Shown here: positions 57,876 to 64,000 of the stretch, piece by piece
How the letters are laid out: each line of letters opens with the position of its first letter
How positions within the stretch are numbered: the first letter of the stretch is position 1
NCBI RefSeq assembly: GCF_014295415.1
Contig: NZ_CP052909.1
Location: forward strand, 2,728,001-2,792,000
DNA length: 64,000 bases
Reading direction: 5' to 3'
Source: Constantimarinum furrinae
GTDB taxonomy: Bacteria; Bacteroidota; Bacteroidia; Flavobacteriales; Flavobacteriaceae
Translations under genes and position numbers: made by a program
Notes under the pieces: model-generated
What the model was told of the DNA's origin: nothing
The model's input: the letters and a program-made list of their open reading frames with translations, nothing else
The model's database searches: none

Positions 57876-57968
57876 TTGCAGTATCTTTGATAGACAAATT
57901 TAGCAAACCTCAACTGATTCAGAAAACTCCTGTAATAGCAATAATTTATACTTCTAAAACAAAATCCG

Positions 57969-58361
57969 ATGTCTGAAATTGAAATACTGAAGAACAAAAG
58001 TGAAACGCGCATTTTTAAAGCCGTCTTTCCTAATACCACGAATCATTACGACACTTTATTTGGAGGGACTACGCTACATATGATGGATGAAGCTTCTTTT
58101 ATTTGCGCCACCCGATTCAGCAGAAAGAAAATGGTAACTGTTTCAACAGATAAGATCGATTTTACGACGCCTATCCCTCAGGGTAGTATCGTAGAGTTGG
58201 TAGCACGGGTCGACAAAGTGGGTAGAAGCAGTTGCGTGGTAAAGACTGAAGTATTTATGGAAGATATGTACAGTGACGACCGCGAAAAGGTTGTCACAGG
58301 GTATTTCACTTTTGTGGCCATAGGAGAAGACAAAAAGCCTATTCTCATCCTTAGTGAATAA
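57969..58361 (+). CDS. Acyl-CoA thioesterase, hotdog fold (YciA-like)
   Basis: Hydrolyses acyl-CoA to free acid and CoA. 130 residues, a single hotdog domain: FPNTTNHYDTLFGGTTLHMMDEASFICATRFS with the catalytic Asp, VSTDKIDFTTPIPQGSIVELVARV, and a GYFTFVAI strand. Chain-length preference cannot be read from the sequence. Divergent from the nitroreductase gene. Confidence 0.9.
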   Translation: MSEIEILKNKSETRIFKAVFPNTTNHYDTLFGGTTLHMMDEASFICATRFSRKKMVTVSTDKIDFTTPIPQGSIVELVARVDKVGRSSCVVKTEVFMEDMYSDDREKVVTGYFTFVAIGEDKKPILILSE

Positions 58362-58473
58362 AAACATACTTCCTTCTGGGTGATAGCATTGAAAATGACT
58401 TCTTTACTAGAGCTAAATTAAGGAAGGAAATTTAATAATGTGATCCTCGATAAATATATTAAAGCGGCCCAAA

Positions 58474-58485
58474 TGATATATATCA
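58474..58485. promoter_or_regulatory. FNR/CRP-type box 1 (TGAT-ATAT-ATCA)
   Basis: Core of the 14-base perfect palindrome ATGATATATATCAT (58473-58486). Its centre (58479.5) is 29.5 bp upstream of the -7 element TACTTTTG at 58509-58516, that is about -41.5 from the expected start of transcription. Confidence 0.65.
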
Positions 58486-58488
58486 TAG

Positions 58489-58516
58489 TTGTTGGTTTAG
58501 CATAATATTACTTTTG
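58489..58516 (+). promoter_or_regulatory. Promoter of the TSUP transporter gene
   Basis: TTG (58489-58491), 17 nt, TACTTTTG (58509-58516). Full match to the flavobacterial promoter pattern, 20 bp before the start codon and just downstream of FNR-type box 1. Confidence 0.7.
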
Positions 58517-58535
58517 GGACCATATACGTCAATGT

Positions 58536-59264
58536 ATGCTGTCTCGCTATCTTCCGATCTTTATAATTTTATCAATTATTGCTGAAATTTTAGGAACTGT
58601 GGGCGGATTTGGTTCATCAGTTTTTTTTGTACCCATTGCAAATTTCTATTTAGACTTTCAATCTGTTTTGGGTATTACCGCGTTATATCACGTTTCCAGC
58701 AACCTTACTAAAATAGCATTTTTCAAAAAAGGACTAGAAAGAACGGTAATCATTCAATTAGGTGTGCCTGCTGTCATTTTTGTAATTATCGGAGGATTTC
58801 TAAGTCAATTTTTTGACCCGGTTATCCTTACTTATATGTTAGGTATTTTCTTGGTTCTTCTCAGTTTAGCTTTTCTTATTTTTAAGAATTTGATTGTCAA
58901 ACCCACCACTAAAAATGCATTTATTGGAGGAACACTGTCCGGACTTAGCGCCGGAATTCTAGGAACAGGTGGTGCAATTCGTGGTCTAACCTTATCCGCC
59001 TTCAAGATGAATAAAGATAAATTTATAGCTACGTCTGCTGTAATAGATTTGGGTGTCGATTTTAGTAGAACCATAGTGTATTATTTTAACGGATATATGC
59101 GGAAGGATCTATTATATCTAATTCCTATTTTAATTGTTGTAGGAATTATTGGCACTTGGATTGGTAAACAGATTATAAATAAAATTTCCCAAGAACAGTT
59201 TCGTTATATTGTGTTACTTCTCATCTTAGGGATAGGGTTAGCAAGTATTATAAGCACTTTATGA
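58536..59264 (+). CDS. TSUP (TauE/SafE) family transporter
   Basis: Inner-membrane protein of 242 residues with about seven hydrophobic helices. TSUP hallmark glycine-rich repeats: GTVGGFGSSVFFVPIANFYLDF in the first half and GGTLSGLSAGILGTGGAIRGL in the second. The family moves sulfite, sulfoacetate and other organosulfur anions; the substrate here is unknown. It sits under an FNR-type box and heads a cluster of stress genes. Confidence 0.88.
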   Translation: MLSRYLPIFIILSIIAEILGTVGGFGSSVFFVPIANFYLDFQSVLGITALYHVSSNLTKIAFFKKGLERTVIIQLGVPAVIFVIIGGFLSQFFDPVILTYMLGIFLVLLSLAFLIFKNLIVKPTTKNAFIGGTLSGLSAGILGTGGAIRGLTLSAFKMNKDKFIATSAVIDLGVDFSRTIVYYFNGYMRKDLLYLIPILIVVGIIGTWIGKQIINKISQEQFRYIVLLLILGIGLASIISTL

Positions 59265-59650
59265 TATACTTGGTTTATGTAGAGATTTTATGTCCCTAGC
59301 GTCCTTTACTATAGAATACTTACTTGCATACTTCACAATCCATCCTTCATATATAGACTCGTAAAATTGCATTAATACATCCCGTTTACATAGCTTAAAT
59401 CATACTCTCCTACAATTAAATACAATTTAAGCTCCGTTATTTTGTGGATTACTAAAACAGAGATAGCACTCAGCGCCTGTACGTCAATTCTATGTAAATA
59501 ATAATCATGAGGTTGTGTAAATTGCATCTGCCATCTTAAAATTCAGTAATCTTCCCATATCAAAATTGCTCCATAAACGACCACTGATATTTATCATAGT
59601 TTAACACTTTGTGAGTTCTTAGATTTGAGACATAATATTAATCAAACGTT
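59265..59650. other. Gene-free region between the TSUP gene and hpf
   Basis: No ORF with coding character on either strand. It holds an inverted repeat AGCTTAAAT-N24-ATTTAAGCT (59392-59433), FNR-type box 2 (59585-59596) and the -7 element TAGATTTG (59620-59627). Confidence 0.55.
59585..59596. promoter_or_regulatory. FNR/CRP-type box 2 (TGAT-ATTT-ATCA)
   Basis: Centre 59590.5, exactly 29.5 bp upstream of TAGATTTG at 59620-59627, the -7 element of the hpf-usp unit. Confidence 0.65.
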
Positions 59651-59962
59651 ATGACTATCCATATCCAATATGTAAAAATGAAAAGTAGTGAGAGTATGTC
59701 TCAATATGTCAGCAAAAAACTTCAGAAAATTGCAAAGAAATACAGCTGGGTTATCAGAGTTGATGTTTTATTTAAGCAGGAAAATGACCCTACAGAAAAA
59801 GGGCACATCTGCGAAATGGAATTCAGTTTACCCGGTCCTAAAATCTTTGCGGTTTCCAATGAAAAAAATTATGAGATGGCTGTAAAAGAAACCATAAGCG
59901 ACCTCGAAAGACAACTTAAAAAACGAAAGGCAAAATTTACAAACCAAAATATATCATCATAA
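59651..59962 (+). CDS. hpf: Ribosome hibernation promoting factor (short HPF/RaiA, S30AE family)
   Basis: Binds the 30S decoding region and inactivates or protects ribosomes under stress. 103 residues, the short form: IHIQYVKMKSSESMSQYVSKKLQKI, KENDPTEKG-like loop, and YEMAVKETISDLERQLKKRKAKF with the basic C-terminal helix. It overlaps the universal stress gene by one base (TAATG). An FNR-type box upstream suggests induction under oxygen or energy limitation. Confidence 0.9.
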   Translation: MTIHIQYVKMKSSESMSQYVSKKLQKIAKKYSWVIRVDVLFKQENDPTEKGHICEMEFSLPGPKIFAVSNEKNYEMAVKETISDLERQLKKRKAKFTNQNISS

Positions 59963-60795
59963 TGAAAAAAATACTCATACCAGTAGATTTCTCCGAACAC
60001 TCAGAATATGCTTTAGAAGTGGCTGCGAACTTAGCAAAAAAGCATAAGGCTTCTTTAGTCATCCTACATATGATGGGCTTGTCTGAAGCCGTATTAACAC
60101 GAGATGAGTCACAAGAAATGTTAGAAGCGATTTATTATATGAAGCTGGCCGAAAAACGGTTTAGTGAATTTTTAGATAAGAACTATTTAAATGGCATTAC
60201 TATAGAAACTACTGTCCAAAACTATAAAGAATTTCATGAGATTAATAGTGTTGCTAAAGATTTTGATGCGGATTTGATTGTAATGGGTTCCCACGGTGCT
60301 AGTGGCTTAAGAGAGGTGTTTGTAGGTAGCAACACCGAAAAAGTAGTTCGCACCTCAGAAATTCCGGTATTGGTTATAAAAAATCGTGTTAAAGATTTTA
60401 AATTGAATAAGGTGGTTTTTGCATGTGACTTTAACATGGATTTTATAGGCGCATTTAAAAATGCGTGGGAATTCTTTGAAAAAATAGGATCCGAATTTCA
60501 GATGGTTTTTATTAACACTCCGGAAAAATTCCGTAGCAATAAAGAAATGCAAGAGCTCGCATTTAAATTCATACTACATAGTGGGGTTGATAATACCGAT
60601 GTTTATGATAATACAGCTTATTATTGTGACTATAGATTAGAGCACGGGATTTATAGTTTTAGCCATGAGATTGAAGCAGATTTAGTCGTTATCCCAACTC
60701 ACGGGAGGCGAGGTCTAGCTCATTTCTTTTCTGAAAACATTGGCGAAGCAATCGTGAATCATAGTGATCTTCCTATAATTACGTTTAAGGTGTAA
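59962..60795 (+). CDS. Universal stress protein, tandem UspA domains
   Basis: Cytoplasmic stress protein of 277 residues with two Usp folds. The first (about 1-145) opens KKILIPVDFSEHSEYALEVA and carries the full ATP motif G-x2-G-x9-GS as GSHGASGLREVFVGS. The second (about 150-277) ends PTHGRRGLAHFFSENIG and lacks the final Gly-Ser/Thr of the motif, so only one half may bind nucleotide. Coupled to hpf, which suits a dormancy or low-energy response. Confidence 0.93.
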   Translation: MKKILIPVDFSEHSEYALEVAANLAKKHKASLVILHMMGLSEAVLTRDESQEMLEAIYYMKLAEKRFSEFLDKNYLNGITIETTVQNYKEFHEINSVAKDFDADLIVMGSHGASGLREVFVGSNTEKVVRTSEIPVLVIKNRVKDFKLNKVVFACDFNMDFIGAFKNAWEFFEKIGSEFQMVFINTPEKFRSNKEMQELAFKFILHSGVDNTDVYDNTAYYCDYRLEHGIYSFSHEIEADLVVIPTHGRRGLAHFFSENIGEAIVNHSDLPIITFKV

Positions 60796-60851
60796 TGGTA
60801 TCGGTATCCTGGTTGAAAGAACATTCTAAATCGGGATTCCCCATTTTTATG

Positions 60852-61307
60852 TCAAAACTTTCGCATTCTTCCGGTAATTTCATCGATCCTAATAGTGAAA
60901 ACAATAGGTTCGTCATCTATATAGATCTTACTCGAAAACTGACTGATGAAATCCAAATCCCGCATCTCTTTACGTAAAATAAGATCTTTAACGCCCAATG
61001 AAAACGTATGCAAAAGCGCTTTGGCGGAAGAACTTTCTTCTTCGATATATGTCCCTTGAACTAATACCGATCTCCAGTCGTTGACCGAGCTTATATCGGT
61101 TACAGATAAGGAGGCTGATTTGTTTTTCCGTAATGCATTAATCTTATGTCCTTTTGCAGAATAACAGATGATGTTTTTTTGTTCATCATTGTAGAAATAA
61201 GTTATGGGCACTACAAATGCTCTATTCTGAAATACGTAGCCCAAATGGCCTATATAGTTAGAGCTAAGTAATACTAAATTTTCTTTGTTGCCGAGAGTTT
61301 TGATCAT
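60852..61307 (-). CDS. Pyridoxamine 5'-phosphate oxidase-like FMN-binding protein
   Basis: Split-barrel flavoprotein of 151 residues. Opens IKTLGNKENLVLLSSNYIGHLGYV, then VPITYFYNDEQKNIICYSAKGHKINALRKNKSASLSVTDIS and WRSVLVQGTYIEE, the usual order for nitroimidazole-resistance/PNPOx-like proteins. Function unknown; cofactor FMN or F420-like by family. Preceded by FNR-type box 3. Confidence 0.82.
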   Translation of the reverse strand: MIKTLGNKENLVLLSSNYIGHLGYVFQNRAFVVPITYFYNDEQKNIICYSAKGHKINALRKNKSASLSVTDISSVNDWRSVLVQGTYIEEESSSAKALLHTFSLGVKDLILRKEMRDLDFISQFSSKIYIDDEPIVFTIRIDEITGRMRKF

Positions 61308-61360
61308 AATTATTAGAGGTAGGTTTTATTAAAATTAATAAGTTTGACTCATTAAGAGAA

Positions 61361-61372
61361 TGACTTATATCA
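61361..61372. promoter_or_regulatory. FNR/CRP-type box 3 (TGAC-TTAT-ATCA)
   Basis: One half-site is TGAC instead of TGAT. Centre 61366.5, exactly 29.5 bp from the 5' T of the minus-strand -7 element TAATTTTA (61330-61337) of the PNPOx-like gene. Confidence 0.5.
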
Positions 61373-61424
61373 ATACTTTTTACTGCTTCCAAGATCTTAA
61401 TAACTACGTAGCCAAGTACTGTGA

Positions 61425-61556
61425 TCAATTTCTTATTAAACGATTTAAACGCGTCAAATGCTGCTCATTTTTATAGCTTAAGCAATAGCCATGACAATTT
61501 TTTTTACAAAATTTAAAGAGCTCTTTGCGGCTTTCTTCCCCGGTTAGTTGAATCAT
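61425..61556 (-). CDS. 43-residue Cys-containing ORF downstream of thioredoxin
   Basis: Lies in the 313-bp space between the PNPOx-like gene and thioredoxin. It reads MIQLTGEESRKELFKFCKKN, then CHGYCLSYKNEQH and LTRLNRLIRN; three Cys lie within nine residues (CKKNCHGYC). It could be a small zinc- or redox-active protein co-transcribed with thioredoxin. The start codon is embedded in the inverted repeat CATAACG-N6-CGTTATG (61554-61573). Coding status is uncertain. Confidence 0.4.
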   Translation of the reverse strand: MIQLTGEESRKELFKFCKKNCHGYCLSYKNEQHLTRLNRLIRN

Positions 61557-61573
61557 AACGTCTAACCGTTATG
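61554..61573. repeat. 7-6-7 inverted repeat downstream of thioredoxin
   Basis: CATAACG and CGTTATG around TCTAAC. It overlaps the first codon of the 43-residue ORF and lies 48 bp beyond the thioredoxin stop. It could be an operator or an mRNA hairpin hiding a start codon. Confidence 0.4.
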
Positions 61574-61620
61574 GTAACTATTATTAGGGTGGGTTCAAAT
61601 TGGTATGCGAATGGATAACA

Positions 61621-61917
61621 TTATTTACTTTTAACAATTTGCACGATTTCGTTTTTTTGTAACACTCCAGATTGTCTCCACACCTGCTTTCCATTCTTAA
61701 ATAAAATCATTGTAGGAATACCACGAACTTGAAATTGCGCAGCCAGAGGTTGATTTTTATCTACATCAATTTTTACAATCTTCACGGCATCGCCTATTTC
61801 TTCTTTCACCTGTTTAAGAATTGGTGAAAGTGCTTTACAGGGGCCACACCATTCTGCAAAAAAATCTACCAAAACGGGAGTGTCAGAATTAATAATGGAG
61901 TTAAAGTTACTTTTCAT
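61621..61917 (-). CDS. trxA: Thioredoxin
   Basis: Disulfide reductase of 98 residues from the ATG before KSNFNSI; an ATG 12 bases upstream is possible. Active site FFAEWCGPCKAL with Cys near 24 and 27, the buried Lys in KIVKIDVDKN, and the cis-Pro in VRGIPTMILFKNG. Last of four close genes on this strand, probably sharing the promoter with FNR-type box 4. Confidence 0.93.
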   Translation of the reverse strand: MKSNFNSIINSDTPVLVDFFAEWCGPCKALSPILKQVKEEIGDAVKIVKIDVDKNQPLAAQFQVRGIPTMILFKNGKQVWRQSGVLQKNEIVQIVKSK

Positions 61918-61939
61918 CTTTATGTACATGTCGTTTTAA

Positions 61940-62551
61940 CTATTTATTAAATTTCATCATGGAAATTGAACCGTCGTTGCTTTTAAATTGATAACAAGTT
62001 AGTGCATAAAACAACCATCCAAAGGCTCCTAAATATAAAATACGTTGATGTAATCCTCTATATTCAGGGAATTGCCACATCAACAAAGGTGCAATGATTG
62101 CTAGTGAAAATGCCCCGAAAGTTTGCCATTTATGATTCTTTTTTTCAATTATGAAAATAAATGAAATACAAAAAAGACAGAATGCAAACCCCGCAATTAT
62201 TGTAAAAAGCGAATGGAAAGCATCATCAGTATAATTAAAAATATATTGATATGTATCAGGACTGGCAAGTTGATACACCCCTGTTAGCAAAAAGGAAAAA
62301 CAAAAAAAATAAAGAATAGCAAGCTGTTTCCAATACAAATTTAATTGTTTAGTGGCTAAAAGTGCAATTGCCAAGCTTAATATAACAATCGTATCATTGG
62401 CAATCCAATTGCCGGGTACTTTTTGCGCACCTAATTCATTTATTGAATTTTGAGCAACTGAATACCCTTCAAAAGAAAATAGAGGGAGTAGAAAAATAGT
62501 GATTATAAATAGTGCATAAGCAATTATGTATATTTTAGCATATAATCTCAT
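61940..62551 (-). CDS. DUF998 family membrane protein
   Basis: Integral membrane protein of 203 residues with about six helices and little soluble sequence. The order ENxxSELGA-like (SINELGAQKVPGNWIAN), QLASPDTYQYIFNYTDDAFHSLFTIIAGF and late YRGLHQRILYLGAFGW matches the DUF998 family, whose function is unknown. It is 1 bp downstream of the lipoprotein gene and 22 bp upstream of thioredoxin. Confidence 0.82.
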   Translation of the reverse strand: MRLYAKIYIIAYALFIITIFLLPLFSFEGYSVAQNSINELGAQKVPGNWIANDTIVILSLAIALLATKQLNLYWKQLAILYFFCFSFLLTGVYQLASPDTYQYIFNYTDDAFHSLFTIIAGFAFCLFCISFIFIIEKKNHKWQTFGAFSLAIIAPLLMWQFPEYRGLHQRILYLGAFGWLFYALTCYQFKSNDGSISMMKFNK

Positions 62552-62552
62552 A

Positions 62553-63449
62553 TTAAAGAATAAGAGGATTTAGGTTGAATTTTCTTAGTATAGGAAGCAA
62601 TCGCTCCAAAGGAATTTCTACCGAAAATGTACCAGTGTATGATGGGCAAATCACGCAATCATCAAAATAGTATTCCACCTTATAATCGTTTATAACGAAA
62701 TTATTTTTGTATTCAAAAAAATCGTCAAAGGTTATTTCCCAGCAGTCATAATACATATCTCCTTTATAAATCTGATCTGTAATAATTTCGTTGAGGATTT
62801 TGGTCATTTCTTCTTCAGTTCCCTCATTAAAAAAATCTTCATAGTTCATAAACACTGAACGATTTAAATCAAAATTTAGACAATCAAAACTATAAGTTGG
62901 ATGCAACGTACCAGAGTAATAATTCTCCTTGTAAAAAAGTATACTTATAAGCTTTTCATTGAGAGCGTATAATTTATAATCAATCAAGCGTTGTTCTTTA
63001 AACCGATTGATACGAACCGTGTCACAGATCATCTCTTTATCTTCTAAAATGCTTGCCTCCACACCTTCAATATTCAAATATGTCTCTTCTAGATATTCGT
63101 TAAAATTGTGGTAAGATTCTTTGAGGGATTCGTTCAAGTAAGGATACTTAAAATCTATTAAATATAGATCTTTATCCTTTTTATAATTTTTGTGAACGAT
63201 TAGTTCATCCAGCGCTGCCTTGTCATCTTTTTTATCGATAAGGTTTTGTCGTTTTATGATTATAGATTTGGATTTATTGAGCTCAGTATCATTGTGTGTA
63301 TACAAGCTGTCAAACGGTAATACCTGCTCAAAAGGCACTAGGTCTGTTTCAATAGTACCGGAAAAGTCTTCTGGGTCCTGAGTTTTTTCAACCTCATTTT
63401 TACAGGAAACTATTAAAAGAATTATTAATGCAAGGCTTATATATTTCAT
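62553..63449 (-). CDS. Lipoprotein with RsiV/DUF3298-like domain
   Basis: Exported lipoprotein of 298 residues: signal with lipobox LIVSC, Cys at about 16. The body resembles the DUF4163/DUF3298 (RsiV-like) family: YYSGTLHPTYSFDCLNFDLNRSVFMNYEDFF, an EMTKILNEIITDQI helix, and VEYYFDDCVICPSYTGTFSVEIPLERLLPIL. RsiV of Bacillus binds lysozyme, but many DUF3298 proteins have no known role. Co-directional and tightly spaced with a TerB-like gene upstream (10 bp) and DUF998 downstream. Confidence 0.75.
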   Translation of the reverse strand: MKYISLALIILLIVSCKNEVEKTQDPEDFSGTIETDLVPFEQVLPFDSLYTHNDTELNKSKSIIIKRQNLIDKKDDKAALDELIVHKNYKKDKDLYLIDFKYPYLNESLKESYHNFNEYLEETYLNIEGVEASILEDKEMICDTVRINRFKEQRLIDYKLYALNEKLISILFYKENYYSGTLHPTYSFDCLNFDLNRSVFMNYEDFFNEGTEEEMTKILNEIITDQIYKGDMYYDCWEITFDDFFEYKNNFVINDYKVEYYFDDCVICPSYTGTFSVEIPLERLLPILRKFNLNPLIL

Positions 63450-63459
63450 AATTATAGAT

Positions 63460-63867
63460 TTAGTTGTTTTTAAACAGCAATTGCAATTTTGTAATCATTA
63501 TTAACTCACTCTTATTTGTTCCACTAAAAGCATCGGCAATTTCCTGAACCGTATTCAGAATAAGGATTTTTCTTTCTTCTGAAAATAGATTCTTATGATC
63601 CTTGTAATATTCACTAAAACTCTCGAAACAGTCATCAGCCTCCATACTCTCATAATCAAACCACTCAAACACAATTGAAATTTGGTATGCGGCATCGGTT
63701 CCAAATTGATCTTCGAAATCATCTTTTGCTTTCCACTCTTCTTCAACAAAACGTGTGAGTTCTATATATTCAGATCGCCGTACGACGTTATCTGATGCTG
63801 CAATAGCGTAGAAGAGTTCTCCCAGTTTTTGGTAGAATAACAATTCCGTTTGGCTCACTTTTTTCAT
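63460..63867 (-). CDS. TerB-like small acidic helical protein, unknown function
   Basis: A 135-residue protein predicted to be all-helical and acidic. The segment LGELFYAIAASDNVVRRSEYIELTRFVEEEW resembles the helix-turn-helix core of TerB/DUF-type tellurite-resistance-related proteins (AIAxADGxVxxxE). There is no signal peptide. First gene of the unit ending in thioredoxin, with FNR-type box 4 about 57 bp upstream of its start. The TerB assignment is tentative. Confidence 0.65.
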   Translation of the reverse strand: MKKVSQTELLFYQKLGELFYAIAASDNVVRRSEYIELTRFVEEEWKAKDDFEDQFGTDAAYQISIVFEWFDYESMEADDCFESFSEYYKDHKNLFSEERKILILNTVQEIADAFSGTNKSELIMITKLQLLFKNN

Positions 63868-63918
63868 AGTTTAATTTATTGATAGTATAAAAATACCTTC
63901 ATGAAATAGGATTCACTA

Positions 63919-63930
63919 TGATATTTATCA
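63919..63930. promoter_or_regulatory. FNR/CRP-type box 4 (TGAT-ATTT-ATCA)
   Basis: Same 12-base core as box 2. Centre 63924.5, exactly 29.5 bp from the 5' T of the minus-strand -7 element TATTTTTA (63888-63895) ahead of the TerB-like/lipoprotein/DUF998/thioredoxin unit. Confidence 0.62.
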
Positions 63931-64000
63931 GTTTCAGAAATTTTGAGAGCTTATTACTTATCTTTGGAGTATGGATGTTTTTAATAAGGGTAGCAACGTT

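Follow-up and report, generated by a model that had tools for sequence, protein, structure and literature searches.

A receiver-Crp fusion protein and a FixL/DosP-like PAS kinase as the probable low-oxygen switch of a stress-survival island in Constantimarinum furrinae

The window analysed here, 64,000 nucleotides of the genome of the flavobacterium Constantimarinum furrinae (C1:2728001-2792000 of a one-contig genome of 2,987,299 bp), contains near its right end a cluster of stress genes whose four transcription units are each preceded by a Crp/Fnr-type box at one fixed distance from a -7 element. We consider it probable, judging from sequence comparison, that these boxes belong to a low-oxygen circuit resembling FixL-FixJ-FixK, in which receiver and activator are one protein, and that this circuit drives a survival island resembling that of the Dos systems. 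The four boxes would be activator sites of a single-locus regulon with at least seven promoters, and would be read by a fusion protein consisting of an N-terminal receiver (REC) domain on a Crp/Fnr body from which the residues for cAMP contact have disappeared and in which an FNR-type cysteine cluster is absent. The fusion would be switched by the product of the gene immediately upstream, a kinase with a first PAS domain (PAS1) that most resembles those of the haem oxygen sensors FixL and DosP. As oxygen falls, the kinase would phosphorylate the receiver, and the Crp part would then dimerise on TGAY-N4-RTCAT at -41.5, beside the sigma factor and RNA polymerase, where it would activate rather than repress. 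The output would comprise universal stress proteins (Usp), a ribosome hibernation factor, OsmC, Hsp20, thioredoxin and the nitrous oxide (N2O) reductase operon.

Both direct reading and pattern matching place the four boxes at the positions given in an earlier note on this DNA (Table 1). In all four cases, 23 bp separate the box from a TAnnTTTR element on the strand of its own unit, i.e. 29.5 bp from the box centre to the first T of the element (58509 and 59620 on the plus strand, 61337 and 63895 on the minus strand), which bears out the single fixed distance claimed in that note. The consensus proposed there, TGAY-N4-ATCA, describes boxes 1, 2 and 4; box 3 reads TGATATAAGTCA on its own strand, and TGAY-N4-RTCA, followed by T, was therefore taken as the working consensus. 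The plain box without its spacing was rejected as evidence, as it matches 10 times in the whole window against 5.9 expected, a number reached by 13 of 100 shuffles (not significant). Box and fixed spacing together yield four sites in 57901-64000 (6.1 kb), whereas 2000 dinucleotide shuffles averaged 0.0025 and never gave more than 1. With the first T taken as -12, following the TAnnTTTG box of Flavobacterium psychrophilum, which spans -12 to -5 in the excerpted text of its source (PMC9723704), the box centre is predicted at -41.5, in agreement with the published -7 position in that species. A palindromic box, TGATATGTATCA, lies within the DUF998 gene (62247-62258) with no correctly spaced -7 element, and looks like chance.

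The same arrangement recurs in relatives. With one genome per genus (149 family genomes, for site and regulator counts alike), 67 of 149 genera of Flavobacteriaceae have a match to the fusion protein at E<=1e-30 (14 best first-look candidates scored per genome), and in 65 the match counts as full length. At the level of the phylum (E<=1e-40, 5 candidates scored), matches occur in 61 of 395 genomes, the five most distant being to the receiver only. A repeat search with the Crp half alone (up to 20 scored) returned 64 of the same 65 genomes and no new one, a distant member (G001) not being recovered. In 61 stretches surrounding fusion genes (mostly 20 kb), TGAYN4ATCA stands 141 times at gap 23 and 0-7 times at every other gap from 0 to 60; the GTCA variant stands 93 times at gap 23 and at most twice at the other gaps shown (10-40). 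A set of 75 further named loci (80, Ulvibacter litoralis and Dokdonia pacifica among them, minus 5 of the same DNA as the first set; few genera, many Aquimarina) gave 280 sites at gap 23, at most 20 elsewhere and 0 in the reversed control, with a site in 75 of 75. Beside the main peak there is a slight excess at gap 24 (6 sites in the 61 stretches, 20 in the 75 loci). Across all 149 family genomes, TGAYN4ATCA-N23-TAnnTTTR occurs 1214 times, against 52 in the reversed control. The earlier note had staked its proposal on conservation in relatives, and the boxes are indeed kept at the same single spacing in the 61 stretches, the 75 further loci and the 30 nosZ loci described below. Two other motifs were tried on the 61 stretches and discarded: the E. 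coli-type TTGATN4ATCAA has 20 matches and the CRP motif TGTGAN6TCACA 2, with none of either at gap 23.

Among the 234 gap-23 sites of the 61 stretches, the base behind the box is T in 97%, though no pattern required it, and the base before the box is A or C in 94%; in the logo the box is followed by a run rich in T, beyond which a second element is lacking, and the 23-bp spacer is mostly unconserved. An open reading frame (ORF) starts within 400 nt of 207 of these sites (25 are farther away and 2 have no ORF), with a median of about 20 nt from predicted transcription start to ORF start. The first genes behind the 207 sites include 90 Usp relatives, 22 TerB-like genes, which are the commonest labelled first genes other than usp, and 11 hpf genes, and a frequent gene order in relatives is TerB-like, box, kinase, fusion, box, usp.

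Within C. furrinae itself, TGAYN4RTCAT-N22-TAnnTTTR has seven matches without mismatch in the whole genome, all of them in C1:2786474-2805272, an 18.8-kb stretch that starts within the window and extends beyond its right edge. Seven more sites carry one mismatch, two in the same stretch (before OsmC and before Hsp20) and five elsewhere in the genome, and a relaxed -7 element gives 10 sites over 36.5 kb scanned. The compact four-site cluster of the earlier note is therefore real in its sites and too small in its extent, with seven exact sites, or 10 with the relaxed element. To the right of the window follow the kinase, the REC-cNMP-HTH_Crp protein, three usp genes, an ATP-cone protein, a beta-CASP metallo-hydrolase, OsmC, Hsp20 and a fourth usp gene. 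Site 7 precedes genes for a cytochrome c, a fasciclin-domain protein, NosZ (TIGR04246, 1e-284), a Pfam-unmatched protein, NosL, NosD, an ABC ATPase and a weak match to an ABC-2 permease; by its gene content this is a Sec-dependent nitrous oxide reductase operon. The statement that the regulator gene is not in the window holds for the DNA-binding protein (65489-66538) and fails for its sensor kinase, whose ATG lies inside at 63971. The search that the note had proposed, for a Crp/Fnr gene with Fe-S cysteines or a haem domain, does lead to a Crp/Fnr gene adjoining the cluster, in the form of a REC fusion without an Fe-S cluster.

This fusion belongs to the Crp/Fnr superfamily by its cNMP_binding (PF00027, 7e-18) and HTH_Crp_2 (PF13545, 7.3e-12) domains, both over the cut-off, and to the response regulators by PF00072 (6.5e-27), with D9, D52 and K104 present in 60 of 60 relatives and D10 in 55 of 60; Glu315 and Arg319 of the recognition helix are likewise present in 60 of 60. 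FNR proper carries an Fe-S cysteine cluster near its N-terminus; here the N-terminus is the REC domain, and 47 of 60 relatives have one or two cysteines in total, the others 3-5. CRP proper contacts cAMP through residues that are Glu72 and Arg82 in E. coli; the equivalents in 60 aligned fusions, assigned by eye, are position 210, which is F or Y in 49, and a place around E221-T222. FixJ joins a REC domain to a LuxR-type helix-turn-helix (HTH), and the DosR/DevR system pairs the LuxR-type DevR with a haem-GAF kinase; here the output is cNMP plus HTH_Crp_2, and the partner is a PAS kinase with no GAF among its Pfam matches. Because the receiver residues are kept, the cAMP contacts lost and the N-terminal cysteine cluster absent, phosphorylation is the likely input of the fusion. 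A structure model of the REC-Crp protein has a predicted template-modelling score of 0.57 and a weak linker at 132-139. Cys51 (L022:8139-8141), which adjoins the phospho-Asp, is invariant in 59 aligned fusions and is a possible redox input. A second group of REC-Crp proteins (L111-L116), 41-44% identical, lies beside long kinases (972-1109 amino acids) in five of six cases, with gap-23 sites nearby.

A kinase gene adjoins the fusion gene in 60 of the 60 stretches where the latter was called. For PAS1 of the C. furrinae kinase, the 14 best matches among PDB sequences are all DosP/Ec DOS, FixL or 10jx (the last with a title naming a PAS that binds haem); even the lowest-scoring of these leads the following match, a LOV domain, by about 18 bits. 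PAS2 of this kinase has just two weak matches, neither titled haem sensor. The equivalent of the FixL proximal His (H66) is present in 58 of 62 kinase-labelled proteins, and a model of PAS1 (predicted local distance difference test score 83) is closest to the haem domains of Ec DOS and FixL. Comparison and model together suggest that the kinase probably binds haem and senses oxygen.

Site numbers follow the regulators present in a genome. Relatives of a Cys-type FNR (query, the 225-amino-acid protein of L078; E<=1e-40) occur in 90 of 149 family genomes, and in genomes at least 90% complete the median number of sites is 0 with neither regulator (n=17), 4.5 with FNR only (n=46), 8 with the fusion only (n=28) and 14.5 with both (n=34); fusion-only and FNR-only genomes each differ from those with neither (p=3e-8 and p=1e-7, uncorrected for kinship). 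A fetched fusion stretch was available for 28 of the 30 fusion-only genomes, and such stretches contain 60 of the 254 TGAYN4ATCA sites in these 28. The Cys-type FNR of Flavobacteriaceae has an almost identical recognition helix and accompanies the same box, and differs from the fusion by an N-terminal Cys-X2-Cys and the lack of a receiver. The idea of a fusion-specific box was rejected, since FNR-only genomes carry it too. The C. furrinae genome is fusion-only, with no Cys-FNR at E<=1e-40. Given this, the medians above, and the different helices and neighbours of the three other Crp proteins of the genome, the fusion is the likely reader of the box here, and the same box appears common to FNR elsewhere. 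An FNR/CRP-type reader, as the earlier note had it, is thus right as to the family and as to the use of the box with Cys-FNR in other genera, whereas the likely reader in this genome is neither an Fe-S FNR nor a cAMP-CRP.

The targets in relatives point to respiration and survival. Nitrous oxide reductase genes (nosZ) are present in 71 genomes, and in the best 30 loci examined a gap-23 site lies within 1.5 kb upstream in 30 of 30 (27 at 1.16-1.31 kb and three at 0.62-0.65 kb before nosZ), against two at gap 23 on the opposite strand of these stretches; the nosZ loci of fusion-only genomes have the site in 9 of 9. In two fusion-only genomes (G031 and G069, 30/31 sites), first genes named by eye include four usp, two hemN, two TerB-like, one ccoS and one cytochrome c gene. 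FixS is the commonest Pfam family among otherwise unlabelled downstream genes (8 of 60 Pfam-scanned). The target set (N2O respiration, ribosome hibernation, Usp, OsmC, Hsp20, thioredoxin and PNPOx) is in keeping with anoxic survival, and the dormancy or low-oxygen response suggested by the earlier note gains support from the FixL/DosP-like PAS kinase and Crp/Fnr regulator beside the cluster and from the N2O reductase operon in the regulon.

Several observations weigh against the proposed circuit. One of the 61 fusion stretches (L084) has no exact site, and many genera have the box with Cys-FNR and no fusion. One complete genome with neither regulator (G137) has six sites, and two incomplete ones (G048 and G146) have 17 and 13; a third reader of the box may therefore exist. 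In C. furrinae, sites with up to two mismatches number 72 against 65 in the reversed control, an absence of excess that leaves weaker sites elsewhere in the genome unsupported, and FixS has 0 matches in this genome, so that a cbb3 oxidase was rejected as a target there. Most other first genes in G031 and G069 have no evident low-oxygen role. As to the sensor, H66 occurs together with the equivalent of the haem-pocket Arg (R86) in only 44 of 62 kinases, LOV (flavin) PAS structures follow closely after those with haem in the Foldseek ranking, and the nosZ operon would suit nitric oxide as a signal too. These last points feed the most serious alternative, in which the same circuit responds to nitric oxide, to redox state or to a different PAS ligand such as flavin; the 18 of 62 kinases in which R86 is not Arg and the invariant Cys51, which could give redox control, speak in the same direction. 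We regard this as unlikely, if far from negligible, since haem sensors come first among the PAS1 sequence matches, well ahead of LOV, and FixS and HemN-like genes behind the same box are low-oxygen genes; oxygen would then be the signal, rather than nitric oxide or redox state.

It seems improbable that the fusion is a bystander and that the reader of the boxes is a different Crp/Fnr protein encoded in this genome, a classical FNR or CRP. The genome does hold three further HTH_Crp_2 matches, two of them over the family cut-off, and the company that Cys-type FNR keeps with the same box in other genera, together with the likeness of its helix to that of the fusion, lends the idea some substance. 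However, besides the missing Cys-FNR, the three other Crp proteins are encoded elsewhere and have other helices (RVETVIR, SSRVVVSR and ITPESLSR); the first adjoins a short globin-like ORF and the second lies in a TSUP/metallo-hydrolase-rhodanese cluster (neighbours named by eye), whereas 7 of 7 exact sites surround the fusion gene. Least credible of all, to the point of being hardly worth entertaining, is that the boxes are equally spaced by accident or as a leftover of promoter duplication: the DNA is AT-rich and the plain box is not rare, but the shuffle count, the sharp gap-23 peaks in both sets of loci, and a spacer left mostly unconserved next to a strongly kept T that was never asked for refute it, in line with the earlier claim that the alignment was not inherited from one duplicated promoter. 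We thus retain the fusion and its kinase as the probable switch.

The features of the cluster are collected in Table 1. The protein that the earlier note called 'TerB-like' had 0 matches in Pfam and NCBIfam scans. Farther right (L022:11778-13986), the ATP-cone protein, which weakly matches an Mrr-type nuclease, and the beta-CASP metallo-hydrolase recur as a pair in the cluster; against the type VII CRISPR Cas14 model the hydrolase scores 376 bits, where the cut-off is 800. A different regulon may be present at L025:3125-6748, where the neighbours of a further Crp/Fnr gene, named by eye, are TSUP, a YeeE-like protein and a metallo-hydrolase that includes a rhodanese-like part.

Table 1. Boxes, -7 elements and genes of the cluster, in window coordinates (the last row lies beyond the window's right edge).
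Feature	Position	Strand	Remarks
Box 1, TGATATATATCA	58474-58485	+	precedes TSUP gene
-7 element, unit 1, TACTTTTG	58509-58516	+	23 bp behind box 1
TSUP/TauE-SafE membrane protein	58536-59264	+	PF01925, 2.4e-28
Box 2, TGATATTTATCA	59585-59596	+	precedes hpf-usp
-7 element, unit 2, TAGATTTG	59620-59627	+	23 bp behind box 2
Ribosome hibernation-promoting factor (HPF)	59651-59962	+	PF02482; TIGR00741 over cut-off
Universal stress protein, two Usp stretches	59962-60795	+	PF00582, 2e-39
PNPOx-fold protein	60852-61307	-	PF12900, 2.5e-11
-7 element, unit 3, TAATTTTA	61330-61337	-	23 bp behind box 3
Box 3, TGATATAAGTCA (minus-strand reading)	61361-61372	-	precedes PNPOx-like gene
Thioredoxin	61621-61929	-	PF00085
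DUF998 membrane protein	61940-62551	-	PF06197
Lipoprotein-like protein with DUF3298	62553-63449	-	PF11738
'TerB-like' protein	63460-63867	-	
-7 element, unit 4, TATTTTTA	63888-63895	-	23 bp behind box 4
Box 4, TGATAAATATCA (minus-strand reading)	63919-63930	-	precedes TerB-like unit; the kinase gene diverges from the same gap
PAS-PAS-HisKA-HATPase kinase gene, first 30 nt	63971-64000	+	continues to window-equivalent 65476 (L022:6471-7976)
REC-cNMP-HTH_Crp gene, 349 amino acids	65489-66538		window-equivalent of L022:7989-9038; directly behind kinase gene

Activator boxes of class II FNR- and CRP-dependent promoters are centred at -41.5. The predicted box centre is the same here, with the difference that the box is set on the Bacteroidota -7 element TAnnTTTR and not on a -10 TATAAT. 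The closest comparison for the circuit is the FixL-FixJ-FixK cascade of Alphaproteobacteria, as far as it is described in the excerpted text of PMC4999443. Common to both are a FixL-like PAS kinase, a receiver protein, a FixK-like Crp/Fnr activator without Fe-S, TGAY-N4-RTCA boxes, FixS and HemN-like targets (here in relatives), and coexistence with an FNR that uses the same box, as FnrN does with FixK. In contrast to that cascade, the FixJ-type receiver and the FixK-type activator are fused here, so that one transcription step is gone; usp, hpf and N2O reductase genes come first among the targets; and the box lacks the outer T (TTGAT), consistent with the absence of TTGATN4ATCAA at gap 23. 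From the portion of PMC5069765 available, the DosT/DevS-DevR (DosR) system of Mycobacterium and OsdKR of Streptomyces are similar in that a two-component pair near many usp genes serves a low-oxygen response, with Usp, heat-shock and redox proteins as common targets, and PNPOx as well in Streptomyces. They differ by a DevR-type output, a GC-rich box and a haem GAF sensor, where a Crp/Fnr output and a PAS sensor are found here. The gene content is thus similar and the regulator different. By its domains the circuit belongs neither to the FixL-FixJ-FixK systems nor to those of DevR and OsdR.

Among open-licence PMC papers, nothing direct was found on the fusion or its regulon. When oxygen is limiting, cbb3 oxidase and haem synthesis increase in F. 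psychrophilum, with no regulator named in the excerpted text (PMC9723704), and a CRP/FNR study of a bioreactor community, in the part at hand, assigned its Flavobacteriales protein to MalR (PMC8510549). For gene control at low oxygen in this family, many of whose members are marine, the proposed circuit would supply a regulator that is named and can be tested, along with a site code legible from genomes, and the strict spacing allows targets to be predicted across family genomes with little noise (1214 against 52 reversed). It would also mean that cells which reduce nitrous oxide, and so act as a sink for a greenhouse gas, couple this activity to a programme of stress survival, and it suggests that a Dos-like gene set has come under an unrelated regulator. 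For a wider reading we see the balance as even: that a haem-PAS kinase with a one-protein FixJ-FixK, whose Crp part is blind to ligand, may be the low-oxygen survival switch of many Flavobacteriaceae; that its set of -41.5 boxes may be common to the Fe-S FNR in genomes with both and kept where either regulator is absent; and that two chemically different oxygen readers may thus be interchangeable on a regulon joining N2O respiration, Usp production and ribosome hibernation, one that would match the Dos regulon of mycobacteria by convergence.

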